35,026 bases of DNA from the NCBI GenBank assembly GCA_016927275.1, contig JAFGMW010000080.1, positions 1-35,026 of the forward strand, written 5' to 3'. The notes under the pieces were generated by a model. It did no database searches. It had not been told where the DNA came from and worked only from the letters and a program-made list of their open reading frames with translations. This document shows positions 2,920 through 30,979 of this stretch, piece by piece. Position 1 is the first letter of the stretch. The number at the start of each line of letters is the position of its first letter. The stretch comes from Pseudomonadota bacterium. Its GTDB lineage: Bacteria > UBA10199 > 2-02-FULL-44-16 > JAAZCA01. Both the position numbers and the translations under genes were made by a program.

Positions 2920-4488
2920 CTATTTTGCATACTCTGTAGCCCTGGTTTCTCTGATCACCGTGACCTTGATCTGGCCCGGATAGGTCATCTCCGCCTCGAT
3001 CTTCTTGGCGATGTCCTTGGAGAGCACGACCGACTCGGCGTCTGAGACCTTGTCGTTGACCACCATCACGCGCACCTCGCGGCCGGCCTGGATCGCGTAG
3101 GACTTCTCGACTCCCGGGAACGATTTGGATATGCGCTCCAGGTCCTCGAGGCGCTTGACGTAGGCCTCCAGCACCTCGCGGCGGGCGCCGGGCCGGGCGC
3201 CGGAGAGCGCGTCCGCGCAATCAACGACCATGTCGAGCGGCGTCGTCTGCTCGATGTCCTCGTGGTGCGATCCGATGGCATGGATCACGTCGGGGTCCTC
3301 TCGGTACTTCTTCGCGTACTCCATGCCGATCAGGGCGTGAGACCCCTCCACCTCGTGGGAGACCGCCTTTCCGATGTCGTGCAGAAGCCCCGCGCGGCGG
3401 GCCTTGGCCTCGTCGAGCCCCAGCTCCGCGGCCATCATGCCGGAGAGGAACGCGACCTCGCGCGTGTGCGCGAGCACGTTCTGCGCAAAGCTGTAGCGGT
3501 ACTTGAGAGAGCCCAGGAGCTTCACGAGCTCCGGGTGGACGTTCGGCACGTTGAGCTCGAGGCAGAGCTGCTCGCCCGCCTCCTTGATGGAGCCCTCGAC
3601 CTCCTTCGTCACCTTCTCCACCATCTCCTCGATGCGGGTCGGGTGGATGCGTCCGTCGGCGATGAGGTTCTCGAGCGTTATGCGCGCGATCTCGCGGCGC
3701 ACCGGGTTGAAGCCGGAGAGGATCACCGCCTCCGGCGTGTCGTCTATCACTATGTCGATGCCGGTCGCGGCCTCGAGCGCCCTTATGTTGCGGCCCTCGC
3801 GGCCGATTATGCGGCCCTTCATGTCGTCGCTCGGGAGCTGCACGACGGAGATAGCGCGCTCCGCGGTGTAGTCCGAGGCCATCCTCTCCATGGCGGTGGA
3901 GATTATGAACTTGGCCTTCTTCTGCGACTCCTCCCTGGCGCGCTCCTCGACCTCCATGATCTCGCGAGCCGCGTCCTGCTTAGCCTCGTCGACCAGGGCC
4001 TCCTTCAGCTGCCTCTTGGCCTCTTCGGTGGAGATGCCGGCCATCTGCTCGAGCTTGCGCTTCGTCTCCGTGACGAGGTCCATGTAGCGCTTTTCCAGAT
4101 CCTCGACGTGCTTCTTGCGATCATCTATGGACTGCTCCGCCCGGACGACCTCCTCCTCCTTCTTCTCGACGAGCTCGAACTTCTTCTCGAGGTTGTCCTC
4201 CTTCTGCTGCAGCCTCTTCTCGGTGGCGGAAAGCTCACGCTGCTTCTCCTGGCTCTCCTTCTCGAACTCCTCGCGGGCCCTCAGCTGCATGTCCTTGGCA
4301 GAGAGTTCCGCCTCCTTCTTGAACGCCCTGGCCTGCTGCTCCGCGTCGCGAAGGAGCGAGGCCGCCCTCTGCTCCGCCTCCTCGACCCTCCTTTTGCCTA
4401 TTCCACGTCGAACGGCGGCGCCGACCGCGAACCCGACTCCGATCGAGACCGCCAGGGAAGCTATCACCTGCCATATCTGCAGCGTCAC
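2920..4488 (-). CDS. rny: Ribonuclease Y
   Basis: The 522-residue membrane-anchored endoribonuclease initiates mRNA decay. In order, it has an N-terminal membrane helix ([18 protein letters not shown]), a long charged coiled coil (about residues 30-200), a KH domain ([19 protein letters not shown]), and an HD domain with the metal motif HDIGKA preceded by HTREVAF. The length is typical of the family. The start is set by the strong AGGAGG, which lies 5 nt before GTG at 4488. The GTG at 4494 directly abuts AGGAGG and is unlikely to be used. It precedes the YmdB-like phosphodiesterase, a conserved pairing. Confidence 0.97.
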
Positions 4489-14401: not shown

Positions 14402-16033
14402 TCACGGCATTTGCGCGCCTGATCGATCTCCCATGATCTTCGAGACGGCGAAACCCAGATAATCGCCCCGATTTTCGCGCGAAGGGGGGATGTGGATGTC
14501 GATGTCAGGGGGGTTGCCTTCCTGGTCCCTGCCGTCTGCGCCAACGCTTATTCCCACGGCCATCGAAATCGAAAAACGGGTGCCGTCGCGCAGGGAGAAG
14601 TCGCGCTCGTAGTAATACGGGTTCTGGGCGGCGCGCGGCGGAAGGCCGGCGGTCGTGGCGATGTTGTTTCCCTTCATGATCGCGACAAACTGATCGCACG
14701 AGCTAGCGCAGTAGGGGCCGGTCAGCACCACCAAATCGAAAGGTCTTCCACCCTCCTCCGGCCTATAGACAGCCTCGCCCGCTTCGCACCGCTCGGTCGT
14801 GCAGAAAAAGGGGTACTCGGGCGAGACCAGCGCCCCGGGATTGTCCCTGAAAAATCTTCGGGCATGTTCGGCCATGAAGTCGGAGCCCATGTCGACATCG
14901 TCGGTCCAGTCGCTCCTCCCCTCGAAAACAGGGCGCCTGTGCAGATATCGGGTGCCTATGCTGAACGGCCTGTCGGCGAGGCGCGCTATGAACCACGGAT
15001 TGAGATTGCCGCCGCCGTTCTCCCGCACGTCGAATATGACGGTGCGGGCCCCTCTCCTTTTCAGATACCCGAGGAGCTCGCGCTGGTCGGCCGTGGCAAG
15101 CTCGCGAGTCCCCGGGCCCTGCGGATCCAGGGGCATCGGCCTATAGGAAAGCTCGGGGAGCCTGTTCCAGAGGGCCACTGCGTCGTCGAAACGGTAGCGG
15201 AACGAGTGATAGCGGACGATCTTCACGTCGGGCCGTGCCGTCGGGTATACTCCGTAGTTGATCCCAACGAATTCAGGGGTCCGGCCCCTGTAGTCGTCGG
15301 GTATGAGCGGCGTCCACAGCACTTCGGCCGCGCCCCGGCCCTTGGCCCGCTCGCCGCCTCCGCTCCTGCGCTCGGCCCACCGGAATATCGTCTTCATCGC
15401 AGTACCGGTATCAGGATCGCGAAACTCGAAGGCCGTGGACTCGCCGACCTCCGGCGCAGGTGAGACTAAGGGATCGCGGGAGACGAGCCATTTCGCTGTC
15501 TCGAATTTGAGATGCTCGGGGGAGCTGCTCTCGTGCCACTCGCGGAACTCCTCCTCCAGCTGAGCGGGCGGGCGGCCGTCCACTGAGACGAGCACCGAGC
15601 CGGCCGAAACCGCGTCATCAGACGATTCTATGACGACGTACTCGTATCCACCCTCGCCCGATTCAACCCTGAGCTTCAGCGGGAGCTCAACCGGCTTTCT
15701 GTCCGGGAGGAATTCGTCCCGGATGCGAAGCCTGCTGTGCAAGTCGTGATATGAGTTTTTCAGCGACAGAAGCGCATAATAGACGTCATCCCTGGTTCGG
15801 GCATCCGAGAATCTTCTTCCGGCCCTTTCGAGCTCGATCTCCCATGTCGTTCCGAGCCTGCGGAGGCCGTCCTGCGAGACGATCTGCGTCTCCGCGATCC
15901 CCTCGACCATCTCCTCGAAACAGCCGTTCCTGTCCCTGCCGAACCAGCGGTCCGCATCACCCCCCGCTCGAGAACAGCCGCCGAAGATCGCGACGACGAA
16001 AGCGACGATGAGCATGAATCCTCTGCATCGCAT
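14402..16033 (-). CDS. S41-type protease-like lipoprotein
   Basis: The protein has 543 residues and a lipoprotein signal peptide (FMLIVAFVVAIFGGC, lipidation at Cys20), so it sits on the periplasmic face of a membrane. An N-terminal helical part is followed by a PDZ-like stretch (VSAGSVLVSVDGRPP). The C-terminal half has the S41 (C-terminal processing protease) features RTVIFDVRENGGGN and VVLTGPYCASSCDQFVAIMKGN, the latter at the catalytic Ser position. The usual catalytic Lys is not clearly identifiable, so activity is unproven. The start at 16033 has AGGGGG 8 nt upstream. It is the last gene of the radical SAM unit, 23 nt after the GYPPCC gene, and could act as the protease that trims the product. 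It is convergent with the kinase gene. Confidence 0.8.
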   Translation of the reverse strand: MRCRGFMLIVAFVVAIFGGCSRAGGDADRWFGRDRNGCFEEMVEGIAETQIVSQDGLRRLGTTWEIELERAGRRFSDARTRDDVYYALLSLKNSYHDLHSRLRIRDEFLPDRKPVELPLKLRVESGEGGYEYVVIESSDDAVSAGSVLVSVDGRPPAQLEEEFREWHESSSPEHLKFETAKWLVSRDPLVSPAPEVGESTAFEFRDPDTGTAMKTIFRWAERRSGGGERAKGRGAAEVLWTPLIPDDYRGRTPEFVGINYGVYPTARPDVKIVRYHSFRYRFDDAVALWNRLPELSYRPMPLDPQGPGTRELATADQRELLGYLKRRGARTVIFDVRENGGGNLNPWFIARLADRPFSIGTRYLHRRPVFEGRSDWTDDVDMGSDFMAEHARRFFRDNPGALVSPEYPFFCTTERCEAGEAVYRPEEGGRPFDLVVLTGPYCASSCDQFVAIMKGNNIATTAGLPPRAAQNPYYYERDFSLRDGTRFSISMAVGISVGADGRDQEGNPPDIDIHIPPSRENRGDYLGFAVSKIMGDRSGAQMP

Positions 16034-16056
16034 GCTTCGGCCCCCTGAGGGCACGG

Positions 16057-16893
16057 CTAGGCGGTGAGCGGCGAGAAGTAGACCGTGTGCACATCGGCGC
16101 ACGGCACGCTGCCGGTTGTCCCCTTGTAATACGGGGTGTTGACCAGCGCAACACCCCTGTGCGCGTCCCAGACCGACTCAAGCGACACCGCCTCCATCAT
16201 ATCGGCCGAAATCCCAGGATCCAGCGACTCCGCGACCTCCAGCCAGAGATGGGCGAGCGCCCTCGTCTTTTGGCACACGAAGCTGCACGGGAGATGGAAG
16301 CCGATCCTGGCGCCCCAGTACCTCTGGTGGGCTACGCATTCCGGGTACCCCTCGACTCGGAGCTCATGTCCGCCGTCCGGGCGACTCACGATCTCGCCGC
16401 CGGTATTGAACGCCTGCTGCCAGATGGGGTCGATGAAACCGCGGGCCCAGGCGTCGGAAAAGAACTCCCTGCAGCAGGGGGGATAGCCGAGGAGCGCCCC
16501 TATGGCGTCATGATCCGGGTGTCTCGGCAGCGACGCGGCCACGAACCTTTCAGCTGCCGCATGCGTACGGGTCACGACTCCATAGCAGACCGCTGAAGGA
16601 TCTTCCTCGCCGGCCAGGTCGTGGCGATGCGCGAACCCCTTGAACTTTTTGACCCACCTGATGGCGGTGAACAGCAGGCGCTCCTCGGCGAGGGTCTCTC
16701 TCCGCCGTTCGATTTCATCGCGACGCAAGAGCAATGTCGAAGCCTCGCGATGCCCGGCCTTCACAAGGCCCAGCTCCACATCGCCGGCGATGCGGGTGCA
16801 GCGCCTGAGCTTTTCGGACCAGCGCCGCTCCTCCCCAGGAGTCCGGTACTCCACCCTGGTGAACGGCTCGCAATGTATATCCATGAGCTTCAT
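16057..16893 (-). CDS. Cys-rich protein with GYPPCC motif (DUF483-like), function unknown
   Basis: The protein has 278 residues with no signal peptide or membrane segment. It is noteworthy for the Cys motif LLGYPPCCREFF in the centre and later GYPECVAHQRYWG and FHLPCSFVCQKT, all with the spacing of a metal- or cluster-binding fold. The GYPxCC-xx-FF pattern resembles what I recall of the DUF483 family, but I cannot confirm that without a search. The C-terminus ends in PCADVHTVYFSPL. An excellent GGAGGT precedes the ATG at 16893. It starts 28 nt after the stop of the His/Asp-rich peptide gene and precedes the S41 lipoprotein, so it is probably a modification partner in the same pathway. Confidence 0.65.
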   Translation of the reverse strand: MKLMDIHCEPFTRVEYRTPGEERRWSEKLRRCTRIAGDVELGLVKAGHREASTLLLRRDEIERRRETLAEERLLFTAIRWVKKFKGFAHRHDLAGEEDPSAVCYGVVTRTHAAAERFVAASLPRHPDHDAIGALLGYPPCCREFFSDAWARGFIDPIWQQAFNTGGEIVSRPDGGHELRVEGYPECVAHQRYWGARIGFHLPCSFVCQKTRALAHLWLEVAESLDPGISADMMEAVSLESVWDAHRGVALVNTPYYKGTTGSVPCADVHTVYFSPLTA

Positions 16894-16921
16894 GGCGGAC
16901 CTCCGCACCCGGTCTTAAAAT

Positions 16922-17209
16922 TCAGTCGCGATCCATGTGGTTGTCGTGCGCGTCATGATCGCTGTGCGCCTCATGACCGTTGTCGTGCTTGTCGTGGTCC
17001 GAGTGCGAGCGGCCGGCAATCAACACATGGCCCCTGCCCTCGCTCAGAACCTTGAGCCCATCCTGCGCCTTCTGCAGCTCAGCCAGCCGCTGGACCAGAG
17101 GCGGCAGCCTGTCCGGCCCCTTGACCGACTCCCTCTCCGGCTCCCTCTCATGCGCATGGACCCTCTCGTGCACTGCCGACCCCTCCCCATCCAGCCTGTT
17201 GGTGTACAT
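16922..17209 (-). CDS. Small peptide with duplicated His/Asp-rich C-terminus (candidate RiPP precursor)
   Basis: The protein has 95 residues. A very strong ribosome binding site (AAAGGAGGGG) precedes ATG at 17209. Residues 1-65 are charged and helical, like a leader (ERVHAHEREPERESVK, RLPPLVQRLAELQKAQ). Residues 69-77 and 82-90 are near-identical nonapeptides, HSDHDKHDN and HSDHDAHDN, followed by HMDRD. The gene overlaps the 3' end of the radical SAM-SPASM gene by 62 nt in another frame and is followed by the GYPPCC gene. Short size, tail repetition and position next to a SPASM enzyme are what one expects of a precursor of a ribosomally made, modified peptide. A metal-binding accessory protein is the alternative. 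Confidence 0.7.
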   Translation of the reverse strand: MYTNRLDGEGSAVHERVHAHEREPERESVKGPDRLPPLVQRLAELQKAQDGLKVLSEGRGHVLIAGRSHSDHDKHDNGHEAHSDHDAHDNHMDRD

Positions 17210-18449
17210 TTCCCCTCCTTTGTTCGGACGAGCGGCGATCCGCACCCGCGGGATCCCCGCCCGTCGCGCTGACAGCGGTGGCGGTTTTGATGCCGTATGA
17301 TCCGAGCCTCCTGTCCACGTGCTCACAGATGTCGTATCTGGCCTTGCAGAGGACGTTCCGCCGCGCCACGCTTCCGTCCCTGCCGTTGAGATAGGAGTAG
17401 TACGGGCACCCCCCCTTGCAGAGGCTGAGGTAGGCGCAGCGGCTCCTCTCGCAGTCGTTGATCGCGGCCAGCCGTTCGTCTATGAGCCTTTTCAACACCG
17501 GGTTGTCGCAACTTACGAGGTCGCTCATCGCACTTTCCCGTATGTTGCCGAACCTGAAGTCCTCGTACCCCACAAACTTGGGGCACAGCGTAGCGTTTCC
17601 GAGGTCGTCGACGCTCACGAAGTTGGTCAGGCATCGCGCGCCCTGAGAGCACTTGGTGCCGCAGCCCACTCCGGTCAGCAGCTTCATTATCGTCTCGAGC
17701 GATCCCTCCCCGAAGCTGTCGCTGAATTTTTCGAGGAGGTAGTCGAACTGACCCTTGAAATAAGAGGCGACTTCCTCCGGCGTCAGGCCCAGTTCCTCTT
17801 CGGAGACCGGCTTCCCCGGATCGCAGATGTATGTGTTAGTGTGCCAGTGCGGTATTCCGTTGTCCGCATAGAAATCGGCGATCTCCTTGAATCGGCCGGC
17901 CGAGGCCTTTGTGAGGGTGCAGAGCACGCCGCACCAGCCCTGGCGCGCCCTTATGTATTTCTGTGATCTCAGAATGTCATCGAAGGCGCCGGCTGACCTG
18001 CCCGGCCTGTTGAGCTCGTGGAGGTCCCTGGGCCCGTCGATGGTCAGCGAAAGGGTGACCTTGTTATCGATGAGGAAGTCGTAGAGCTCCTCGTCGTATA
18101 TGGCCCCGCTGGTCTGAACGCAGTTGGAGTACGTCTTTCCGTTTCTGGAGTGCCTCCTCTGCAGGGCGAGGACCTTCTCGAAGAAGGGCCTGCCGCCGAG
18201 GAGCGCCTCGCCGCCGGTCCATTCGAAGTCTATATGGCGCTGGCGCACGTCGAAGGCGTCGCTTATCACCTTCTCCAGGAGGTCGTCCGCGATCATCCTG
18301 TTCTCAGGACGATGGTTCGGGTCGCGCGCATAGCAGTACCTGCACCGCAGGACGCATTCACGCGTCACGACGACCATGAGGTTGAGTTTCGTGTTGGATT
18401 GAAGGTGCTCGACGAATTCATCCCTTGTCGTAATATACGCGTCTCTCAT
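17148..18449 (-). CDS. Radical SAM/SPASM domain enzyme
   Basis: The enzyme has 433 residues. The radical SAM cluster motif is CVLRCRYC (Cys32, 36, 39 from the chosen ATG). A GGEAL motif (EWTGGEALLGG) follows. The C-terminal SPASM domain for auxiliary Fe-S clusters is seen in VGCGTKCSQGARC, ATLCPKF, CERSRCAYLSLCKGGCPYYSY and LCKARYDIC. This is the type of peptide-modifying maturases and anaerobic sulfatase-maturating enzymes. No sulfatase is nearby, but a short peptide gene overlaps its 3' end. The last 40 or so residues are low-complexity and may be poorly conserved because of the overlap. ATG at 18449 fits the family's N-terminus (NLMVVVTRECVLRC soon after). It has no clear ribosome binding site, and a GTG at 18506 is an alternative. 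Confidence 0.92.
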   Translation of the reverse strand: MRDAYITTRDEFVEHLQSNTKLNLMVVVTRECVLRCRYCYARDPNHRPENRMIADDLLEKVISDAFDVRQRHIDFEWTGGEALLGGRPFFEKVLALQRRHSRNGKTYSNCVQTSGAIYDEELYDFLIDNKVTLSLTIDGPRDLHELNRPGRSAGAFDDILRSQKYIRARQGWCGVLCTLTKASAGRFKEIADFYADNGIPHWHTNTYICDPGKPVSEEELGLTPEEVASYFKGQFDYLLEKFSDSFGEGSLETIMKLLTGVGCGTKCSQGARCLTNFVSVDDLGNATLCPKFVGYEDFRFGNIRESAMSDLVSCDNPVLKRLIDERLAAINDCERSRCAYLSLCKGGCPYYSYLNGRDGSVARRNVLCKARYDICEHVDRRLGSYGIKTATAVSATGGDPAGADRRSSEQRRGNVHQQAGWGGVGSAREGPCA

Positions 18450-18707: not shown

Positions 18708-20447
18708 CTACACCTTCTGTATCACCGAATCCGCGCCGGCGGCCATGGCGGCCCGGCGGATTGTATCGTCGTGAGCAAAGCCGGTGCACATGTGGATTTC
18801 CCGAAGGCCTCGGGTTTTGAGGTGAGCGATCACATCGAGGCCGGTCTTCTCAGAACCCTCGAAATTGTAATCGACGATGGCTGCGTCTGCGGCTGACATA
18901 TCAATGCCGACGCCGCACGCCTTCTCAGGGGAGTCGGCCTCGCCGACTACAGTGCCGCCGCCCTCCTCCACGATCCTGCGCCAGCGCAAACGGATGTCCG
19001 CATCGTCATCGATCAGCAGGAACTTCCGCCCTTCAATTTTTAATTGCGGTTCGTTGCGACATGCCTTCGCCTCGGCCTCGGAGACAACGCAATTCGGGAT
19101 CCGTATCGTGAAAGTCGTGCCCTTTCCGACCTCGCTCTCTACATCTATGGTGCCGCCGTGGGCCTCAACGACCTGCTTGCAATAGCTGAGGCCGAGGCCG
19201 GTACCCTTCTTGCGATCGGTGGAAAAAAAGTTTTCGAAGATGTGAGGGAGATCCTTCTCCCTTATACCACAACCGTTATCCTTGACCAGAATCATGATAT
19301 CCTTTTCGTTGTCCACGTCTACGATCATCTCGATTCTACCTTCACCCCCCTTCACCGCCCTTATGGCATTGTGGATCATGTTGGTGATAACACGTGCCAT
19401 TCTGTACCTATCGATCGACACACAGAGATCGTCTGCAATATCGATATTCAATTTTATAATTTCTTTCTCAATTGTATCTGTCACTTCGAATTTTATACAA
19501 TTCTCATACATCCTCTTGAATAAAACACTTTCCTTCTGTAATTTAATAGCCTTCGCATAATCCACCAAATCATCAGCCATATGTAACAACTTCTCCGCAC
19601 TACGCCTTGCAGCCGCATTATATTCACTCTGATTTTTTCCATCGCCGTTCAATTGCATGTTTAGATATGCCTGCAATACCGCTAACGGCGACCGCATGTC
19701 ATGAGCTATATGAGATGACATTTGGCCGATAGCAGCCATCATAGACTCCTCTTTCCTCCGATCGTGCGCCTTCTTGAACTCATCGATTACCGCCAGAAAG
19801 ACTTCCTTCAAATCGCGCTCTTCCTTGCTCCTAGCAGCCTCCACCTCGCTCCTAGATAGGGCATCGCAGGTGCCATCCCGAATGTAGCTCTTGATCCACT
19901 CTATACAGGCAATAATTGGTCGCATCGCATATCCCACGGCGACGATCAACATGACGACCGCTATTGCAGTGATGGCTGCATAGGAAATGATGATGGATCT
20001 TCGCATGCTGCTCAACTGCATTGCCAGCTCATCAACCGGATACTCGACCACAACTCTCCCGAATACGGCATCGTCATATTTAATCGGCGCAGCTACTGCA
20101 TAGCCGACATCATTGAACACATCGCTCGGATTTTCACACAATCGACGGTCAAATCCATCTATGTTACCCACCACAATTACTTCGCCATTACTGAGACATA
20201 TCGCGGCCCTCTCAACACCCTCATATTGCAGATAAGCGGCCATCTGTACGCGGGCCGAATAATAATCGCCTATCATTACGTCATCTGAAAGCACCCTGGA
20301 CAAGAGATCGCCGGACGCTCTGCGGCTTTCTATGAACCTGTCCTCAATGACATGCCGCTCCCCATGCATGATGAGTGCAGAGACGATTCCGCCCAACAAC
20401 ACAATAATTGCAATTATCCAGGCCGATATCTTGTTTTTTATTGACAT
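18708..20447 (-). CDS. Hybrid sensor histidine kinase with C-terminal receiver
   Basis: The 579-residue inner-membrane protein has TM1 at about residues 9-27, an extracytoplasmic sensor part (28-149) and TM2 at about 150-174. The phosphoacceptor box is SSHIAHDMRSPL (His249). The ATPase domain has NMIHNAIRAV (N box), KDNGCGIRE (G1), FENFFST (F box) and GTGLGLSY (G2). The C-terminal receiver has DDDADIR and the phosphoacceptor Asp526 in IVDYNF, with the conserved Lys in VIQK. No separate regulator with a DNA-binding domain is visible, so the output is unknown. It is AT-richer than its surroundings and follows the second methyltransferase by 44 nt, so it is likely the last gene of that operon. 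Confidence 0.92.
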   Translation of the reverse strand: MSIKNKISAWIIAIIVLLGGIVSALIMHGERHVIEDRFIESRRASGDLLSRVLSDDVMIGDYYSARVQMAAYLQYEGVERAAICLSNGEVIVVGNIDGFDRRLCENPSDVFNDVGYAVAAPIKYDDAVFGRVVVEYPVDELAMQLSSMRRSIIISYAAITAIAVVMLIVAVGYAMRPIIACIEWIKSYIRDGTCDALSRSEVEAARSKEERDLKEVFLAVIDEFKKAHDRRKEESMMAAIGQMSSHIAHDMRSPLAVLQAYLNMQLNGDGKNQSEYNAAARRSAEKLLHMADDLVDYAKAIKLQKESVLFKRMYENCIKFEVTDTIEKEIIKLNIDIADDLCVSIDRYRMARVITNMIHNAIRAVKGGEGRIEMIVDVDNEKDIMILVKDNGCGIREKDLPHIFENFFSTDRKKGTGLGLSYCKQVVEAHGGTIDVESEVGKGTTFTIRIPNCVVSEAEAKACRNEPQLKIEGRKFLLIDDDADIRLRWRRIVEEGGGTVVGEADSPEKACGVGIDMSAADAAIVDYNFEGSEKTGLDVIAHLKTRGLREIHMCTGFAHDDTIRRAAMAAGADSVIQKV

Positions 20448-20491
20448 AGCGGGTCACGGCCGGCAACGGCGCGCTCTCCCTCCCTCTGAGT

Positions 20492-21142
20492 TTATTTCGA
20501 AATCAAATAATAATCGTACCTAATCCATCCACCCTTTAACCTGTAGGCATTATGGGTGTCGGACGCCAACAGGCGTCCGCCAAGATCGGCGATCAACTTC
20601 CTGACCCAGGATGCGCTGTAGCGCCTTGAAAAAAAACCTCTCTCGTCGTGCACATAAATATATTTGCCTTGCAGGGATGAACCCTCATCATACTTGTCGG
20701 TTGAAAAGAGCATCATCCCACCATTCTTAAGGACTCTCAGCATCTCAGCCAGGGTAAATCTGAGGTCCCTGCAAAATTCCAGGGCGCTGACGCATACGAC
20801 ATAGTCGAAAACCTCATCAAGGAATGGGAACGGACAGTCAAAATCCTGCAGGATGCCAAGGACATGGTTACGCCGCCTACTCCTGGCAACATCAAGCAAC
20901 CTGACGGAGATGTCTGTCGAGACGATAGAGACCTTATCGGGATCCAGCAACGACGTGGACAGCCCGTCGCCTCCCGCGACGTCCAGCAGCAGCGTGTTCG
21001 GCCTAATGTACCGCTCAAGATACTTCTTCACAATCCAATCGTATTCGCCACCCATGCTACGAACGTGCCGTTCAAAATCTTCCCCATACTTGTCATATCT
21101 CTCCCTTACCACCGCCTTGTTGATTTCCATTTCTTTTTCCAT
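20492..21142 (-). CDS. Class I SAM-dependent methyltransferase
   Basis: The protein has 216 residues. The SAM-binding motif I is LLLDVAGGDGLSTSLL, motif II is STDISVRLLDVARSR, and FDYVVCVSALEFCRD plus EMLRVLKNGGMMLFST match the Methyltransf_11 pattern. The acceptor substrate is not predictable. It starts 3 nt after the solute-binding protein's stop, and AAAGGAT lies inside the end of that gene, so the two are translationally linked. Codon use and GC are low compared with genes outside 18.7-23.5 kb. Confidence 0.85.
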   Translation of the reverse strand: MEKEMEINKAVVRERYDKYGEDFERHVRSMGGEYDWIVKKYLERYIRPNTLLLDVAGGDGLSTSLLDPDKVSIVSTDISVRLLDVARSRRRNHVLGILQDFDCPFPFLDEVFDYVVCVSALEFCRDLRFTLAEMLRVLKNGGMMLFSTDKYDEGSSLQGKYIYVHDERGFFSRRYSASWVRKLIADLGGRLLASDTHNAYRLKGGWIRYDYYLISK

Positions 21143-21145
21143 GCG

Positions 21146-22651
21146 TTAATCCTTTTTACGAATACTTATGTCGGACAGATCGATATTCCATATCCCCTGA
21201 CCGTTGGGGCTTATACCATCTAGTTTTGGATTCACCGCCAAAGCGACGTTCGTGGAGAATAGCGGCACGACTACCGGATCGCGGCCGAGTTCTTTGTTGA
21301 CCGACGAGTACAGATGAATACGATCCCTGCTGTTTTCCAGCACACGCGATAGCTCCAACAGCTTGTCCACCAGGCGATTGTTGTATCTCATGAAGTTAAA
21401 CTGACCACTTGAATGGAGGAACGGGAAGTAGTAGGCATCAGGATCAGGATAATCGCCCAAGTATCGAACATATGCTACGTCAAATCTATTGTGGTACAGC
21501 CTGGCTATGTAGATCTCGTGCTCGCACATATCCAGGCGGACCCCGATCCCCTTCTTCCTCCATGCATCCATGATGCTGTCTATGACCACAGGATCCCTCT
21601 CATAGATTTTTCTGGATATCAAAAAGCGCAAGTCCCGTTCCCGGCCCCGCCCGCGCTTTCCCGAACCTGTCCCTCTGTCAATTGAGAGCTTCTTCCATCC
21701 GGGAATATCCATGGGTATCAGCGCATCGACGGGCCTGACCCCGATCATATGCGAAACACGAGTAAGCCCTTTGTTGTCGGTGCTGTGCAGCAAAAATACG
21801 CGTTCATCATCCCGCATCGTGCCATAGTTCATGACCAGCACGTCTACCGCATAATTAGGAAACCTTATGACGGTGCTCCCGCTCCTGCGGTATCTCGCAA
21901 CTTCATCCTCCAGTTGAAGTTGGACTAAAGCCATACCACTACTGTCATACACTGCCTCGCTTAAACTCCCGTTGTCGTTCTTGATGAATCTGATCTTTTT
22001 GAAATGCGCGCGTCTGCCGTTCACATTTGATTCATTGGCGACTAGGACAAGCGAATTGTCAGAATGGCTTCCGACGCGATACGGACCTGTGCCAATAAAT
22101 TGGCCGTCTAACTTGAAACCGATCTTGGCTAACGGACTCGCCAGGCACATAAGCAGGATGTTGGAGGGCTCGACAAGTCTAATCTCGAATATGTTCCCTG
22201 AAGCGGACAGCCCGGATACAACCGGCGACCGGCCCTCCAGATAATCGTCCAGCCCCTCCACGTTTCCTACGATCCACCTCCTGTCCGGATGTTTTCTGAG
22301 CATACCTTCGTAATAATGCTTCACAGCATCTCCAGATACGATCCTACCCGAGGAATCTCTAACATCGTCATTCAGGTGAAATACGTAATGTTTTCTGTCC
22401 ATGCTTATAGTCCACCGTTTTGCTATGTCCGGCATCACTTTCAAATCCTTGTCGAGTTTGACCAAGCCTTCAAATACCTGGTTGATCACTAGGGCGCTAG
22501 TGAGATCCCTTACGCCATCGGGCGTCAGTTCGATATCAAGGTTTACAACGTCGATCACAAGCTCGTAGGATTCAGAATGAGCGTAAGTCGACGCAGAAAA
22601 CAAGACCAGCGCAAGCAGAGATAGGATCAATTTTCTCGTTATGATATTCAT
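21146..22651 (-). CDS. Family 5 extracellular solute-binding protein (peptide/nickel type)
   Basis: The protein has 501 residues with a cleavable signal peptide (KLILSLLALVLFSASTYAHS), so it is periplasmic. It shows the SBP_bac_5 pattern: LVINQVFEGLVKLDKDLKVMPDIAKRW, VFHLNDDVRDSSGRIVSGDAVKHYYE, FIGTGPYRV, and YLGDYPDPDAYYFPFLHSSGQFNFMRYNN. Members bind peptides, nickel complexes or metallophores for ABC import. No permease or ATPase gene is in the window, so it may act with transporters elsewhere or as a sensor partner for the histidine kinase downstream. Its ATG overlaps the upstream methyltransferase stop (ATGA), showing translational coupling. Confidence 0.9.
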   Translation of the reverse strand: MNIITRKLILSLLALVLFSASTYAHSESYELVIDVVNLDIELTPDGVRDLTSALVINQVFEGLVKLDKDLKVMPDIAKRWTISMDRKHYVFHLNDDVRDSSGRIVSGDAVKHYYEGMLRKHPDRRWIVGNVEGLDDYLEGRSPVVSGLSASGNIFEIRLVEPSNILLMCLASPLAKIGFKLDGQFIGTGPYRVGSHSDNSLVLVANESNVNGRRAHFKKIRFIKNDNGSLSEAVYDSSGMALVQLQLEDEVARYRRSGSTVIRFPNYAVDVLVMNYGTMRDDERVFLLHSTDNKGLTRVSHMIGVRPVDALIPMDIPGWKKLSIDRGTGSGKRGRGRERDLRFLISRKIYERDPVVIDSIMDAWRKKGIGVRLDMCEHEIYIARLYHNRFDVAYVRYLGDYPDPDAYYFPFLHSSGQFNFMRYNNRLVDKLLELSRVLENSRDRIHLYSSVNKELGRDPVVVPLFSTNVALAVNPKLDGISPNGQGIWNIDLSDISIRKKD

Positions 22652-23403
22652 ACATTTCTCATGACAACCGCAATACTGGCGGAAGCCGGATCCGGACAGC
22701 ACATCTCAACTGGACTGCCAAACATCTCGTCGATCTTAAGACCGAGCTCGTCCGCCACATCCCTGATGAATTTGTAAGTCATGGCACAATGCTCAAAACG
22801 TACCAGCCTCTCCGCGCCAGCGCCATCGTCAGGCAGGAGCTCGATCTCGACTATGAGTTTGTCGTTCTTAACATCCCTCTGGATCCATGTCCTTCTCCTT
22901 CCTGAAAACAGCCCTCCGATATCGACATGCTTCTCGACGGTCATTTCTCTGTGTGAGGAGAAAGAAGCGGCATTGTCTACGTGAAATGCAATGCGCGCCC
23001 TTTCACCCATGACGGAGGCCACTGTCCTTAGAATATCGCTAACATCGCGTTTATTGTGATTCTCCGAGATCACATTGCACGGCATGATGGCCAGACAGGA
23101 ATCTATTTTTCCTTTCACATCTCTTATATCCTTATTGATCAACTCGTACCTCTTCAGCGTCCTGTCATCCGAAGCTCTGTCGAGCACAGACTTCAATTCG
23201 GCAAACATTCCGTCACTTCGTTCAACCCCTATAATTTCGTAATCAGACAGCAGCTCAAGCATCACCCTTCCGGCACCAGGACCTATATATAGGATGGGCT
23301 TGTCGTTCGCGTATCTTCGCGCGGCATATCGCCAGAAAGGCATATCATCCGTATATGTAAAAAAGGCGCGGTAGTAGCGGGCAAACTCGCCGAAGCTATC
23401 CAT
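22648..23403 (-). CDS. SAM-dependent methyltransferase-like protein
   Basis: The protein has 251 residues. The N-terminal half holds a SAM-binding motif (PILYIGPGAGRVMLELL, then EIIGVERSDGMFAEL) and a catalytic-domain motif (KIDSCLAIMPCNVISE). The second half is unusual, with many strands (MTVEKHVDIGGLFSGRRR, IQRDVKNDKLIVEIELL) and a late CC pair (VEMCCPDP). The start MDSFGEF has GAGGAG 7 nt upstream. An in-frame upstream ATG at 23457 lies inside a perfect hairpin and was rejected. It is the first full gene of the AT-rich operon. Confidence 0.8.
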   Translation of the reverse strand: MDSFGEFARYYRAFFTYTDDMPFWRYAARRYANDKPILYIGPGAGRVMLELLSDYEIIGVERSDGMFAELKSVLDRASDDRTLKRYELINKDIRDVKGKIDSCLAIMPCNVISENHNKRDVSDILRTVASVMGERARIAFHVDNAASFSSHREMTVEKHVDIGGLFSGRRRTWIQRDVKNDKLIVEIELLPDDGAGAERLVRFEHCAMTYKFIRDVADELGLKIDEMFGSPVEMCCPDPASASIAVVMRNV

Positions 23404-23422
23404 ACTTCTGCTCCTCAGATGC

Positions 23423-23455
23423 GCATCGGCGGAGGTGTTACACCTCCGCCGATGC
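23423..23455. promoter_or_regulatory. Perfect 15-bp hairpin in operon leader
   Basis: Two exact 15-nt inverted arms (GCATCGGCGGAGGTG and its complement) are separated by 3 nt. On the minus strand there is no T-tract after it, so it is not a simple terminator. It lies between a minute ORF and the first methyltransferase gene. It contains GGAGGTG, a ribosome-binding-site-like sequence that is buried in the stem. Confidence 0.8.
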
Positions 23456-23457
23456 AT

Positions 23458-23890: not shown

Positions 23891-24547
23891 GGTTAGTGGT
23901 GTAAATGACCTCCTCCCCGGACTGCGCTAGCGCTCCGTCCGGGGTTTCCTGGAAAAGCGTCATGAGAATTCGAAGCCTACCTGTTGCGACAGATCCTGCC
24001 GCCCTTGGTATTCTATATATTTTTTAATTTGCTCCTCGTTGAGCCCGATAGTGAATGAGAAATACCCCACACTCCATATTGATCCGTCCAGATACATGCG
24101 CCGTATAAACTTGAATTTCCTCTTCAACTGCTTGCTCGCTTCAATCTTCAATTCCTGTACTGCCTTCGAGACTGGTATGTTCGGGGGGATCTCAATCTGA
24201 ATGTGGATATGATCTTCATCGATATTCATCGCGATCAAATGGAGCGTGGGGTATTTCTTCATCGCCGAATAGAGGCTCTTCGCAAACTCTCCACGCACGT
24301 AGTCCTTCAGATATTTCCTGCGATATTTCGTCCCCCAAACTATGTGATATTGATGTTGATATACTGAATGCTGCAGGCTTCGAATTCTCATGATTACCCG
24401 TTGCACACGCCTACGGCCTGTGCAACGGCAAAGGAGTCATTCATCCCCGCACTCCGGCGGCTTGCCAAATCCTTTAGATTGCCAGCTCTTCTAGAACGCC
24501 GCCTGCGTGCGGGGTTTCCTGACTTGGCAAAAGGTTAGTGGTGTAAA
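23891..24547 (-). mobile_element. IS200-type insertion sequence
   Basis: A lone Y1 transposase gene (23960-24391) lies between two hairpin ends. The left hairpin has CCCCGGAC (23915-23922) with GTCCGGGG (23937-23944), and the right one CCCCGCAC (24445-24452) with GTGCGGGG (24507-24514). Both are followed by GTTTCCTG. The 15-nt sequence GGTTAGTGGTGTAAA occurs at both outer edges (23891-23905 and 24533-24547). IS200 family elements have subterminal hairpins and no classical inverted ends. The exact outer boundaries are inferred from the shared sequence. Confidence 0.75.
23960..24391 (-). CDS. tnpA: IS200/IS605 family Y1 transposase TnpA
   Basis: The 143-residue enzyme cuts and joins single-stranded DNA. 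Motifs present are YHIVWGTKYRRKYL at the N-terminus, the histidine pair HIHIQIEIP (HUH), and the C-terminal catalytic helix EEQIKKYIEYQG with the probable nucleophile Tyr. The length is normal for the family, so the gene seems intact. The ATG at 24391 is chosen. A GTG at 24406 would add five residues. No TnpB or other cargo gene is associated. The first 17 and last 18 or so bases of the gene region are exact inverted copies of each other (23961-23978 and 24375-24392). Confidence 0.93.
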   Translation of the reverse strand: MRIRSLQHSVYQHQYHIVWGTKYRRKYLKDYVRGEFAKSLYSAMKKYPTLHLIAMNIDEDHIHIQIEIPPNIPVSKAVQELKIEASKQLKRKFKFIRRMYLDGSIWSVGYFSFTIGLNEEQIKKYIEYQGRQDLSQQVGFEFS

Positions 24548-24689: not shown

Positions 24690-25025
24690 TTACGCGGCCT
24701 CGTCGTAGATGACTTTTCCGCTGCGCAGTATGTCCGCCTCGAAGCTGCGGGAATCACAGTCCAGAAAATCATCCGGAAGATAAGGCAGCGCTTCGATCTG
24801 GGGGGTTATGTGACGCGCAACCTCCGCAAGCAGCAGATGGTCATCTTCAGTACCGCCGTGAAAATCCGGCGAAATGACGACCAGGTCGATGTCGCTCCAT
24901 GGACGCGGGTTGCCGCGGGCGTAAGAGCCAAAGAGGATCACGCGCTGAATGCGAACACGCCGCTTCAGGGCATCGATATATAACTTAACTATTCGTTCAA
25001 CATCAGGATAGATTTCCTGCACCAT
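24690..25025 (-). CDS. MNT-domain nucleotidyltransferase (antitoxin of HEPN/MNT pair)
   Basis: The 111-residue minimal nucleotidyltransferase carries the motif VILFGSYARGNPRPWSDIDLVV (GSYARG and DxD, two metal-binding Asp residues). MntA-type antitoxins adenylylate the HEPN partner to silence it. The start overlaps the HEPN gene end by 37 nt, the normal arrangement with HEPN first. It ends with DEAA directly before a CTERM gene remnant. Confidence 0.9.
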   Translation of the reverse strand: MVQEIYPDVERIVKLYIDALKRRVRIQRVILFGSYARGNPRPWSDIDLVVISPDFHGGTEDDHLLLAEVARHITPQIEALPYLPDDFLDCDSRSFEADILRSGKVIYDEAA

Positions 25026-25393
25026 TTTACAAAATCCTCCGTCTGTGAAAGCAGCTCTGACGCCTGCGCCCTGCTCAACTCGGATGCAAGCTTCTGTTTG
25101 AACGACGGATAGCGACCTGCTATATAATATCTGCTCAGCCGATTCATCAGAAGATGCTGTCCATCGGACAGCTCGATCTTCAGCGATTCGACAAGGGTGG
25201 AGAGGTTATGAACATACGGAGGCGAATCGTCTCTCAATTTACACCATATCGCCTTCAGGATCTTTTCCGCCGCTTGCTGACTCATAAAGGCAACATAGAG
25301 GCTGTGCCCACTCGCCTCCATCGCAGCAGCGGCACTGAGGTCATAGTCAGCCCTCGCTACCCATTGATCCACGATATTTTTCGGATCGGTCAT
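24989..25393 (-). CDS. HEPN-domain toxin (HEPN/MNT pair)
   Basis: The 134-residue helical protein has the HEPN features RADYDLSAAAAM, AFMSQQAAEKILKAIWCKLR, and PPYVHNLSTL with a conserved His. HEPN toxins of this type are RNases. The Arg-to-His distance here (R-x7-H) is longer than the usual R-x4-6-H, so activity is uncertain. The ATG has no clear ribosome binding site. Upstream is an AT-rich stretch, and the unit is bracketed by CTERM repeat copies B and C. Confidence 0.87.
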   Translation of the reverse strand: MTDPKNIVDQWVARADYDLSAAAAMEASGHSLYVAFMSQQAAEKILKAIWCKLRDDSPPYVHNLSTLVESLKIELSDGQHLLMNRLSRYYIAGRYPSFKQKLASELSRAQASELLSQTEDFVKWCRKSILMLNE

Positions 25394-27277: not shown

Positions 27278-27326
27278 TCATTTTTCTCCCTCCCTTGATG
27301 GGAGGGAGTCAGAGGGAGGGTGATCC
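27230..27326. repeat. Inverted pair of CCCTCTCCC palindromic repeats at DUF559 3' end
   Basis: Copy 1 (27230-27271) reads GGTCACCCTCTCCCTGACC... on the plus strand. Copy 2 (27281-27326) is a diverged copy on the minus strand and encodes the C-terminus of the DUF559 protein (DHPPSDSLPSREGEK). Each unit contains its own CTCTCCC/GGGAGAG hairpin. Confidence 0.85.
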
Positions 27327-27652
27327 ATGCATTCACGATGCACTGATTCAAGCACATCCATCGGATTAAGAAGAATGTCGCTATTCCAGTATCTCAACAC
27401 TCTGTAACCTTGACTTGAAAACCATTGATCGCGAGAGAGGTCCTTCGCATTCTCCAAGTGATGACCACCATCACATTCAATTATGAGCTTTTTCTCATAA
27501 CAGATAAAATCAACTATGTATGGTCCTATTGATTGCTGTCTCCTGAATTTAAAGCCGGAAAACCTCCTTGCTCTAAGATGCTGCCAGAGCAAGCGCTCGG
27601 CATCGGTAGATTCCTTGCGAAGTTTTCTAGCGAATTTGATGAGATGATTCAT
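27278..27652 (-). CDS. DUF559 endonuclease-like protein
   Basis: The 124-residue protein is related to the Vsr/PD-(D/E)xK nuclease superfamily. Motifs seen are RKESTDAERLLWQHLRAR, FKFRRQQSIGPYIVDFIC (catalytic Asp), KLIIECDGGHHL (Glu and Asp) and GYRVLRYWNSDIL. The usual DUF559 core is complete. The gene is bounded on both sides by copies of a palindromic repeat. The upstream copy starts 2 bp from the start codon and supplies GAGGGTGA as the ribosome binding site, and the downstream copy supplies the last 15 residues. This is probably a mobile unit. Confidence 0.88.
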   Translation of the reverse strand: MNHLIKFARKLRKESTDAERLLWQHLRARRFSGFKFRRQQSIGPYIVDFICYEKKLIIECDGGHHLENAKDLSRDQWFSSQGYRVLRYWNSDILLNPMDVLESVHRECMDHPPSDSLPSREGEK

Positions 27653-27910: not shown

Positions 27911-30900
27911 TCATTGCGTACTGACTGAAACCATGTCTACCATGATGGGAACCGGGTCACCGGGATGTTGCGCCTGATATAAATTCATCAGTTGTTGAGC
28001 GTATGTATAACTTATTCCACCCGCATATGATCTTCCAGGTAATGAATGAGGTAAGGAATTCAGCGTAATATGGCGCGCTGAATCACTACTCATAAGAGAC
28101 GAAAATTCCGTGCCACTGTAGGCAATTCTCCATTCATTTGGACACATGACCGCTCTGTCCAGTATTCCATCGCCATCGAAGTCAGTCGTAACAGGGTGGC
28201 AAAAAGCGTTACCGTAAATATTAGCAGGCGCGATCAAGGCGAGATTGGACCAGTAGTTGTCATTGGTTATAGGCCACTCGCCGTTGCTCCTTTTCACGCT
28301 TATCATTGGAGAATAACCGTATAAAAATTTCCCTCCAAACGGCACAACGTCGTTTCCACCAAAAATAAATGGAGTGCCGTCCATCGCATCGTATTCAGGA
28401 TAAAACACATTTCCATCAAAAGGTACAAGATACATCCGTCCTTCATCAGCATGACTATCAGGCACCTTGAAACCCAATACAGCAGTGCCATTTTCCATAA
28501 AATCGCCCACAAAGGGCAAATATGCCCAGCCAGGCGCCTGGCTCAGTTGAGTATTTGAAATAAGTTGAGCGGTCTTTTCAAAGCCTGCAAATGAACTTTC
28601 AGTGCCATCGCCATAGTCGATTCTCACCATGCCATCCGAACAGATAATCGCGATGTCGTTAAAACCATCCTTTGCATATCCACTCTTGTAATAGTTACCG
28701 ATCACCGGCCTGCTGTAGTCCGCGTCGTCCGGATCCAGGGCCATCTCATCGTGCCACTGGGCAGAGTAGTCGAGCACCCAGTCCCAGCCGTGCCAGAGGT
28801 TGTTGCGCGTGAGGTCGGTGTCGGTGAGGGCAACGTAGAAGGTGCCCGCGCACTTGTCGTAAGCAACGAAGTCGGCCCGGCCGTCCGAGTTCATGTCCTC
28901 CACATAGGGCCACGCGCCGCACAGACCGGGGATCACAGGGAAGCTCACGTCCACGTCCCACGCGCCGAAGCCGTCGGCCGCTGGGCCCGTGCTGGAGAGA
29001 TCGACCTTCCAGTTGCCGTTGCTGAACTGCACCAGGTCGGCCCTGCCGTCGCCGTCGAAGTCGTAGTGCTTGGCGATCTTTGTCCCCTCCGGGAAGATCT
29101 CGGAGTCGGGACACGAGGGGTCGGAGTTAATGGGATCGAACTGTCTGCATATGATGCCCACGCCCTGCGCGCGCAGGGCTATCATCTGCGACTCCGTGAG
29201 CTGCTCGTCCGCGGCGAGCTCGGGATAGGAGCTGCTCACCGACGCGAGGAAGGTGTCCACGAGGGTCATTGCAACGTCGATGCGCGGCTGCTTGCCGATG
29301 TTGCCGCCGCCCCCGACCTGCGCCACGCCGGAGCTGTAGAGAATCTCGCGCATCTTGAGCGGCATGAGGTAGCGGCGATGTCCCAGCTCCTGCCTTGCGT
29401 AGCTCTGGACCAGCACTGCGGCTCCGCCCACGATCGCAGCGGCAGAGGAGGTGCCGCCGAAGTTGTCTATGAAATAGGTGTTCGTGGTATCGTTGGGCGG
29501 GATCGGTGGGGTCGTTCCATTCCAGGCGTATTCGCCGTATGGATAGCCCGTGGTCACAACCCCGAATCCCCACGAAAACGCGTTGAAGCGCGAGCCGTAG
29601 TTCGTGAACGCTGAGGCCATGATCTCGTCTGCGCCGCCTGATGCGCCCACCATCACGGCGCCCGCGTCCTCGTACGAGAGGTTGTGCGCAAAGCTCCAAT
29701 CCCCTGTGTAGAGATCAGGGTTGTCGAGATTCATCTGGCCGTTGCCGCCGCCCTCGATCACGGTCACGCCAAAGGCTGTTGCCTGCTCTATGGCGCCGAA
29801 CACGTCGGGCCAGAGCTCAAGCGGCACGCAGCCGTATTGATCGTCCACAGAACCGGCGCAGGTACCTGAAGTGTTAAACTTTCCCGTCAGCTGAACCTCT
29901 AATATCCATATCGAACCCGGCTCGATGTCGTCGTCGCCATCGGTCGTGGGGCTGTCTATGCCGTCTGTTGCAACGCCGAGATCGCCTGCCGCTCCATCCG
30001 TCATACTGCCCTGCACATAATACGCATCGTGCGCAAGGCCGGTGACCCCGTGACCATTGTCCTGAGCGATGAGTATGCCCGCCACCGCGGTTCCGTGCGC
30101 GATCCACGATTCGCAATTGGGGATGGCATAGGGAAAACCGGGCGCGCAGTCGGGCTGGTAGAGGAAATTGCCGCCGTCATCCAGCTCCGCCTTCACGAGG
30201 TCGAACTCCTCGTGGTCAAAGTTCATGCCGGGCTCGTTGTCCACCACATAGACGTCCTGGCCGGTTATCCCGGCTGCCCAGGCCGCCTCTGCGTTCACGC
30301 CGCCGTGTGTGGCCTCGGGCTTGAGATACCCCTGAAGGCCGGTGAGGTCTGGCGTGGTGAGGAGGGACGAAGGGAACGGCTTGAGCTCGGGATAGACCTT
30401 ATCGACGCTGGGCAGGCCCCGCAGGTTCCGAAGGATCTGCACCGCGTAGTCGGGCTTCTTCGCATCCACGCGAAACACGAGGTTCCAGTCGGTGAGCTTC
30501 TTGCCCGAGAGCCTCTCGAGCTTCATGCGCTGCGCCTTGACCACGTCCATGGGCGCATCCACGGAGCGGGTCATCACGATGGAGCCTGCGGTGGAGAGGA
30601 AATCTTTGGTGTCAGGGGATTGCCGCGCTTCGCTCGCAATGACATCCTTGATGGCAGCGACGATCTCATCGTCGCTCGCACTGACGTCCTTGGCAGCGCT
30701 CACCGCATCCGCGGCCGAGCTGCTCTCCAGCACCGGCAGCACGCTCTCGTTGAAATAGACCGTGAGGCGGCCTGAGTATGCGTCCGAGTAGATGAGGTCC
30801 TCGAGGGAGGAGCCTGGACCCAGATCCGCGTTCGGCCCCACGCTCACAGGGCCGCCGGCCCCGCCGCAAGAGGAAACAAGAAGAACTAGAGCGAGGAGAA

Positions 30901-30979
30901 GGAACAGCGACCACCCTCTCCCTGACCCTCTCCCATCAAGGGAGAGGGGATATGATCTCTGTGGGGTTCGGATCGACAT
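27911..30979 (-). CDS. Subtilisin-like (S8) lipoprotein with FG-GAP/VCBS-like repeats
   Basis: The 1022-residue lipoprotein has a signal region ending in the lipobox LVSSC. The S8 triad is visible: Asp in VYVVDNEPG (about residue 245), His in WIAHGTAVAGI (about 295) and Ser in FGGTSSAAAIVGG (about 510). The second half carries calcium-type repeats (FDGDGRADLVQF, MNSDGRADFVAY, FDGDGILDRAVM). Residues 9-24 (SYPLSLDGRGSGRGW) are encoded by a CCCTCTCCC palindromic repeat inserted before the hydrophobic segment. A role in surface or extracellular proteolysis is likely. The 3' third is AT-richer than the middle. A GGGGGA lies about 7 nt before the ATG. Confidence 0.9.
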   Translation of the reverse strand: MSIRTPQRSYPLSLDGRGSGRGWSLFLLLALVLLVSSCGGAGGPVSVGPNADLGPGSSLEDLIYSDAYSGRLTVYFNESVLPVLESSSAADAVSAAKDVSASDDEIVAAIKDVIASEARQSPDTKDFLSTAGSIVMTRSVDAPMDVVKAQRMKLERLSGKKLTDWNLVFRVDAKKPDYAVQILRNLRGLPSVDKVYPELKPFPSSLLTTPDLTGLQGYLKPEATHGGVNAEAAWAAGITGQDVYVVDNEPGMNFDHEEFDLVKAELDDGGNFLYQPDCAPGFPYAIPNCESWIAHGTAVAGILIAQDNGHGVTGLAHDAYYVQGSMTDGAAGDLGVATDGIDSPTTDGDDDIEPGSIWILEVQLTGKFNTSGTCAGSVDDQYGCVPLELWPDVFGAIEQATAFGVTVIEGGGNGQMNLDNPDLYTGDWSFAHNLSYEDAGAVMVGASGGADEIMASAFTNYGSRFNAFSWGFGVVTTGYPYGEYAWNGTTPPIPPNDTTNTYFIDNFGGTSSAAAIVGGAAVLVQSYARQELGHRRYLMPLKMREILYSSGVAQVGGGGNIGKQPRIDVAMTLVDTFLASVSSSYPELAADEQLTESQMIALRAQGVGIICRQFDPINSDPSCPDSEIFPEGTKIAKHYDFDGDGRADLVQFSNGNWKVDLSSTGPAADGFGAWDVDVSFPVIPGLCGAWPYVEDMNSDGRADFVAYDKCAGTFYVALTDTDLTRNNLWHGWDWVLDYSAQWHDEMALDPDDADYSRPVIGNYYKSGYAKDGFNDIAIICSDGMVRIDYGDGTESSFAGFEKTAQLISNTQLSQAPGWAYLPFVGDFMENGTAVLGFKVPDSHADEGRMYLVPFDGNVFYPEYDAMDGTPFIFGGNDVVPFGGKFLYGYSPMISVKRSNGEWPITNDNYWSNLALIAPANIYGNAFCHPVTTDFDGDGILDRAVMCPNEWRIAYSGTEFSSLMSSDSARHITLNSLPHSLPGRSYAGGISYTYAQQLMNLYQAQHPGDPVPIMVDMVSVSTQ
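30911..30950. repeat. CCCTCTCCC palindromic repeat inside the subtilase signal region
   Basis: A single copy reads CCACCCTCTCCCTGACCC and so on, matching the units at 27230-27856. It keeps the reading frame and adds a basic, Gly-rich stretch before the hydrophobic part of the signal peptide. Confidence 0.88.

Follow-up and report, generated by a model that had tools for sequence, protein, structure and literature searches.

Here we describe a gene cluster on a contig of 35,026 nucleotides (JAFGMW010000080.1) from a Pseudomonadota bacterium, which appears to encode a radical S-adenosylmethionine (SAM) enzyme together with its peptide substrate. This stretch, called the window below, is one entire contig of a draft genome of 1.8 Mb and 96% completeness. 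The cluster is a tight run on the minus strand and encodes a radical SAM-SPASM enzyme, a peptide of 95 residues, a protein with the motif GYPPCC and a lipoprotein related to S41 peptidases, in this order. The peptide gene shares 62 nucleotides with the 3′ end of the enzyme gene, and gaps of 28 and 20 nucleotides separate the peptide, GYPPCC and S41 genes; the four packed genes lie where the initial annotation had placed them. The view that the peptide is the substrate of the radical SAM-SPASM enzyme is well supported. The sequences themselves show the gene order, the motif at i+2, that enzyme and peptide have homologues which also form a pair, and that motif arrays occur together with the enzyme and its partner. 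We further suggest that the enzyme probably makes triceptide-like crosslinks between positions i and i+2 of H-x-[D/N] motifs. The window would then hold a cellular, short-peptide member of a mostly viral family in which a radical SAM-SPASM enzyme and a GYPxCC partner act on repeated aromatic-x-Asp/Asn motifs.

The closest relative of the window enzyme is encoded at the locus L003 of genome G045. Among 146 relatives it is the sole close radical SAM protein (51% identity over 391 residues, 442 bits; the next match has 120 bits). A profile scan of genome contigs with the enzyme alignment likewise returned G045 only at 51% and the others at about 31% or less; the genome library used contains 46 genomes of the source class. 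Immediately behind the L003 enzyme gene, with an overlap of four nucleotides (ATGA), position 3000-3332 encodes a homologue of the window peptide. It begins with MKVTNS...IPQVIKEMKDWQKQQDLSSLLEGKMYAVAEGHTDIHTNSTRCGGECHIDIHKDNHTDKTSDKGAHTNV..., and its gene is preceded by AAAGGAGGCAAA. The ribosome binding site (AAAGGAGGCAAAATG) is as good as that of the window peptide, whose start is preceded by AAAGGAGGGGAA. The alignment of both peptides spans leader and core (BLASTP E 2e-5), and the score of the leader alone was matched by 2 to 4 in 10,000 shuffles. The window enzyme is conserved to about residue 390 and its tail overlapping the peptide gene is not, whereas the frame of the peptide is conserved outside the overlap. 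The initial annotation had proposed a SPASM substrate composed of a leader and a His/Asp core, and the pair in G045 bears this out, as the closest homologue of the enzyme does have a short His/Asp-rich reading frame beside it. Neither a GYPPCC nor an S41 gene adjoins the L003 pair. Therefore the conserved core of the system is enzyme plus peptide, and the S41 protease, first counted as a member, falls outside it.

Right before the G045 peptide gene we also observed an imperfect tandem duplication of about 85 bp (L003:2783-2970, CAACCGCGTCAAAGTCAAGTTAGTAACTTGTAT twice). The enzyme frame reads through this duplication, which is possibly regulatory.

The cores of both peptides share a simple pattern. 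Asp or Asn is found at i+2 of five of the eight His residues in the window peptide and of all six in the L003 peptide. Taken alone, the pattern of the window peptide is weak (shuffle p 0.067). When both cores are pooled, 11 of 14 His have Asp/Asn at this position, a value reached by none of 20,000 shuffles. The repeat length is three in the window and mostly four in G045, so that the shared element is H-x-[D/N]. Thus the duplicated tail was correctly recognized as a His/Asp core, but the conserved unit is this short motif and not the duplication of nine residues.

The GYPPCC protein had been proposed as a partner of the enzyme. No homologue was found in the other relatives searched nor in the first profile scan of genome contigs. 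With tblastn, however, we detected a homologue on a Halomicrococcus plasmid (24% identity over the full length, E 2e-23). Homologues of 31-35% identity also turned up in Thermus phages, namely phiMa, Cumys and phiLo, each time directly behind a radical SAM gene. Altogether GYPxCC homologues adjoin radical SAM-SPASM genes in the Thermus phages, in two haloarchaeal plasmids and in about 100 IMG/VR contigs. P138, C140, C141, D155, C207 and W242 are invariant across 20 aligned homologues, and many of the viral proteins have a C-terminal methyltransferase-like domain. In a comparison with DUF483 (PF04467), the viral homologue L136 passes the gathering score of 25 (28.3); the window protein itself remains below it (17.1, E 0.0055 over 25 residues). 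Judged by its homologues, the GYPPCC protein is a real radical SAM partner, widespread, mostly viral and DUF483-related. A structure prediction of this protein alone was too poor for a fold search (predicted local distance difference test, pLDDT, 34) and was not used. GYPxCC proteins are also encoded in cellular clusters where several radical SAM genes follow one another in tandem (L169, L170 and L171 in G070, G302 and G165). Four Pfam Radical_SAM proteins surround the GYPxCC protein of L171, and L170 and L171 encode proteins of 270-316 residues that belong to no family. This looks like a different system with the same GYPxCC partner.

Nearly all of the viral modules, and one of the two haloarchaeal ones, are accompanied by proteins with long runs of the same kind of motif. 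In phiMa, Cumys, phiLo and Halomicrococcus, a protein with an H/Y/F-x-D/N array adjoins the radical SAM-GYPxCC pair or is encoded near it. phiMa_29/Cumys_13 has 342 residues, of which about 240 consist of HTDTHSDTHTDAHGD..., and its gene sits between the tail genes and the radical SAM gene. In phiLo the array reading frames span phiLo_135-137; they come after a gene for a base plate wedge protein, and the radical SAM gene is on the other strand. On the Halomicrococcus plasmid a protein of 206 residues ending in HSDTHGDSYADEHDDHTDDPHTNQHDDHTDDPFTDNHSN... is followed by the radical SAM and GYPxCC genes, with a baseplate J gene close by; a Halorussus plasmid has the pair, and an adjacent array was not noticed there. 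Among the array proteins, one can be identified as tail fibre J (phrog_5616, E 6e-57) and another has a weaker tail-fibre match; the remaining ones are assigned to the tail at most via neighbouring genes. The start annotated for the radical SAM protein phiMa_28 (L129:7848-8984) is too far downstream and omits the CX3CX2C motif, which would explain the label "hypothetical protein"; the frame of Cumys_12 is full.

We counted as an array any open reading frame in which 40 residues contain six or more [HYFW]-x-[DN] motifs; in viral loci the calls come from six-frame reading frames up to 8 kb away in both directions and not from curated genes. Viral scans with the window-type enzyme and with a two-row GYPxCC alignment were negative, but deeper alignments gave matches. 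The GYPxCC alignment scan of IMG/VR returned 30 loci; in 28 of them an array lies close to the GYPxCC gene, and the two that lack one are fragments of 4 kb. Further scans, which share part of their contigs, revealed arrays in 72 of 77 new loci (viral radical SAM profile) and in 74 of 76 (GYPxCC), the array-less loci being mostly truncated by contig ends. When the 181 radical SAM rows are clustered at 70% identity, 61 clusters result, and a separate array reading frame accompanies 59 of these. Controls behave differently. Only one of 115 other, mostly radical SAM, loci (11,824 reading frames) has an array, and the 14 loci that encode a related tail-fibre J protein but lack this radical SAM enzyme have none. 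The single array of the controls (L058:3-146, NPHENPHANPYSNKNPHANPHTD) is located at a contig end. Within the viral arrays Asp/Asn stands at i+2 for 96% of 1435 His and at other offsets for 4-32%; since the arrays were selected by motif density, the evidence is this contrast between offsets and not the absolute value. For Phe the i+2 value is 66%, with 211 FxN motifs. Some viral radical SAM enzymes (L130, L131, L133, L134) themselves end in H-x-D runs, e.g. EHGDYTDHGDAPHGDHWDG, and may thus modify themselves or carry a decoy; in L133, which is one of the 28 loci, the sole array is this tail.

The window enzyme has the CX3CX2C motif at residues 32-39 and eight SPASM cysteines. Pfam detects Radical_SAM (5.9e-14) and, under the cut-off, SPASM (0.016). 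The anaerobic sulfatase maturase (anSME) of known structure, 4k36, matches with E 2.3e-41; all eight SPASM cysteines align with it and are kept in L003, so both auxiliary cluster cysteine sets are present. A structure prediction from two sequences was too poor for a fold search (pLDDT 48) and was not used. The best NCBIfam score is that of the dynobactin maturase DynA (167 bits, cut-off 450). The cut-offs of the curated cyclophane maturase families AmcB, GrrM/OscB, YhhB and FxsB are missed as well (best 92 bits for GrrM/OscB, cut-off 310), and the enzyme can therefore only be likened to these families. For the viral enzymes the top scores are to AmcB and YhhB. The best matches of window and viral enzymes are thus mostly crosslinking maturases, all below cut-off. 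His-Xaa-Ser systems (HxsA/B/C) resemble the window in having His at every third core residue and a radical SAM maturase, but have Ser and not Asp/Asn at position three. Membership was rejected, as there is no HxS run, HxsB scores 107 against a cut-off of 370 and HxsA3 has E 0.2. The early impression that the peptide matches no known precursor class stands.

How far the viral modules inform on the window depends on the relation of the enzymes. In the radical SAM tree the viral and haloarchaeal enzymes form one clade (100/100), and the window and G045 enzymes are in a separate clade near anSME with weak support (77/64). Forcing window and viral enzymes into a single clade costs 3 log units, and such a clade is not rejected (approximately unbiased test p 0.23). 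The tree therefore suggests either a deep divergence of the enzymes or two radical SAM lineages which arrived at the same motif. In the GYPxCC tree, by contrast, the window protein falls into a set of six (support 96/98) whose branches are long and whose other members come from the Thermus phages, L133 and the haloarchaeal plasmids; the Thermus phage rows are nearest by path.

Several observations weigh against crosslinking at H-x-[D/N] in the window. The window and viral enzymes are only about 23% identical and belong to different, well-supported clades; the viral chemistry may thus not carry over. Three of the eight His in the window peptide (HDK, HEA, HDA) are not followed by Asp/Asn at i+2. 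Only one close cellular relative of the enzyme-peptide pair, that in G045, was found, and a GYPxCC protein was present neither beside L003 nor elsewhere in the G045 genome.

The peptide could also be a substrate that is changed in another way, by epimerisation of Asp/Asn, by beta-hydroxylation or by another alteration of His/Asp. SPASM enzymes have several chemistries and the best scores to known maturases are far below cut-off. The methyltransferase-like domain of many viral GYPxCC proteins would moreover make a compound modification possible. We nevertheless consider such a change less likely than the crosslink, to which it ranks second, since the strict aromatic-x-D/N register at i+2 is that of the three-residue cyclophane enzymes. 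In another explanation the peptide is an unmodified metal-binding tail, a buffer or sensor for Ni, Zn, Cu or Fe, and the enzyme acts elsewhere. H-x-D runs resemble His/Asp-rich metal loops, and genes for an SBP5-type binding protein and a sensor kinase lie upstream on the same strand. However, in the scans and controls arrays almost always come with this radical SAM enzyme and almost never without it, and F-x-N arrays lack a metal-binding His, so that we find this improbable. Metal binding as such may still be a function of the system.

A modification of DNA or of a nucleotide has been suggested for the Thermus phage version. The 2024 Cumys paper, in the part dealing with the radical SAM/DUF483 module ("rSAM module"), arrives at this guess from cyanobacterial neighbours with deazapurine genes, and that text does not mention an array substrate (PMC11437467). 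Substrate-like arrays beside nearly every module, the motif even in the tails of some viral enzymes and the SPASM architecture make this very improbable in our view. Finally, the tree position nearest anSME could mean that the enzyme is an orphan relative of the sulfatase maturases with the peptide as a chance neighbour. We regard this as hardly credible. A chance neighbour is rejected by the homologous peptide beside the L003 enzyme. As to the enzyme, the TIGR03942 scores of 142.7 (window) and 191.7 are far under the cut-off of 349.45 (true maturases, 370-467), the catalytic Asp after the third SPASM cysteine is replaced (CPKF versus CDFY), and no sulfatase over cut-off was found in the window genome. 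From these sequence features a sulfatase maturase is unlikely.

For the crosslinking at H-x-[D/N] which we prefer, we suggest the following course. The dedicated 95-residue peptide would be recognized through residues 35-67, its leader, and modified in a core formed by its last 27 residues. The enzyme would abstract a hydrogen from the C-beta of Asp/Asn, and a bond would form from this C-beta to the ring of the His two residues earlier. The product would contain a series of rings of three residues each, linked in a chain like those of triceptides. We infer the modification itself, the type of bond, a role of the GYPPCC protein as helper of the enzyme and a role of the S41 protease in export or trimming. 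We consider a link of the His ring to the C-beta of Asp/Asn most likely because enzymes known to form three-residue cyclophanes work in this register, with XncB/OscB acting on W/F-x-N/D, YxdB on Y-x-D and HaaB on H-A-A (PMC11002830).

Triceptide systems (XncB, OscB, YxdB, HaaB, YhhB) likewise have a radical SAM-SPASM enzyme next to a precursor with leader and core, in which the motifs at i, i+2 are of the type aromatic-x-D/N (or H-x-x). The window differs in its H-x-[D/N] runs, in the GYPxCC partner and in scores far below every curated family. We know of no GYPxCC partner for DynA, and the dynobactin precursor is not a repeat. The bond formed by DynA joins His-N to a C-beta two residues away (PMC11002830). 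The Thermus phage module shares with the window a radical SAM enzyme and a DUF483 protein homologous to the GYPPCC protein; its enzyme is in the other clade, however, and its probable substrate is a tail-region protein with an array of more than 200 residues.

Table 1. Features of the gene cluster in the window
Feature	Position	Strand	Basis or remark
Radical SAM-SPASM enzyme, 433 residues	17148..18449	(-)	Pfam/NCBIfam, L003 homologue, PDB anSME 4k36
Ribosome binding site of the peptide gene, AAAGGAGG	17214..17221	(-)	
Precursor-like peptide, 95 residues	16922..17209	(-)	ATG 17209, stop 16922; homologue after L003 enzyme gene
Conserved leader-like stretch, LPPLVQRLAELQKAQDGLKVLSEGRGHVLIAG	17009..17107	(-)	aligned with IPQVIKEMKDWQKQQDLSSLLEGKMYAVAEG of L003 peptide
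Core, HSDHDKHDNGHEAHSDHDAHDNHMDRD	16925..17005	(-)	five H-x-[D/N] motifs: HSD, HDN, HSD, HDN, HMD
GYPPCC (GYPxCC/DUF483-related) partner protein, 278 residues	16057..16893	(-)	homologues beside radical SAM genes
GYPPCC motif	16471..16488	(-)	
S41 peptidase-like protein, signal/lipobox start MRCRGFMLIVAFVVAIFGGCS	14402..about 16036 (ATG)	(-)	Pfam

The S41 protein has a Peptidase_S41 match of E 1.4e-8. Scans of the window for promoters and terminators gave no more sites than shuffled sequences, and no second radical SAM gene was seen beside the enzyme gene. Upstream on the same strand (18708-23457) are genes for a hybrid histidine kinase with receiver domain, a methyltransferase, the SBP5-type protein and a second methyltransferase-like protein. 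The methyltransferase at 20492-21142 has no detectable relation to the methyltransferase domain which one viral GYPxCC protein carries as a fusion. Further along the window a Y1 transposase of the IS200 type (23960-24406), a nucleotidyltransferase (NTP_transf_2) and HEPN gene pair resembling the MntA/HepT toxin-antitoxin (24690-25393), a DUF559 protein (27278-27652) and, near it, a large secreted subtilase (S8) with a weak FG-GAP-like stretch (27911-30979) are encoded.

In summary, the purpose of the combination of enzyme, partner and motif in bacterial and archaeal viruses was previously unrecognised; our literature search on phage tails with radical SAM enzymes or cyclophanes, which did not extend to subscription papers, returned nothing relevant. 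It could be a virus-wide protein maturation in which the radical SAM-SPASM enzyme and the GYPxCC protein turn the His/Phe/Tyr-x-Asp/Asn arrays of tail proteins into chains of three-residue rings, giving stiff or metal-ready fibres, with the window as the cellular short-peptide version; we regard the case for this as evenly balanced. The Thermus phage module, which was described without a substrate, now has a testable one, and GYPxCC/DUF483-type proteins gain a concrete context as radical SAM partners. An H-x-[D/N] repeat class would be added to the ribosomal peptides, and many tailed bacterial viruses and some haloarchaeal elements may crosslink their tail proteins enzymatically.

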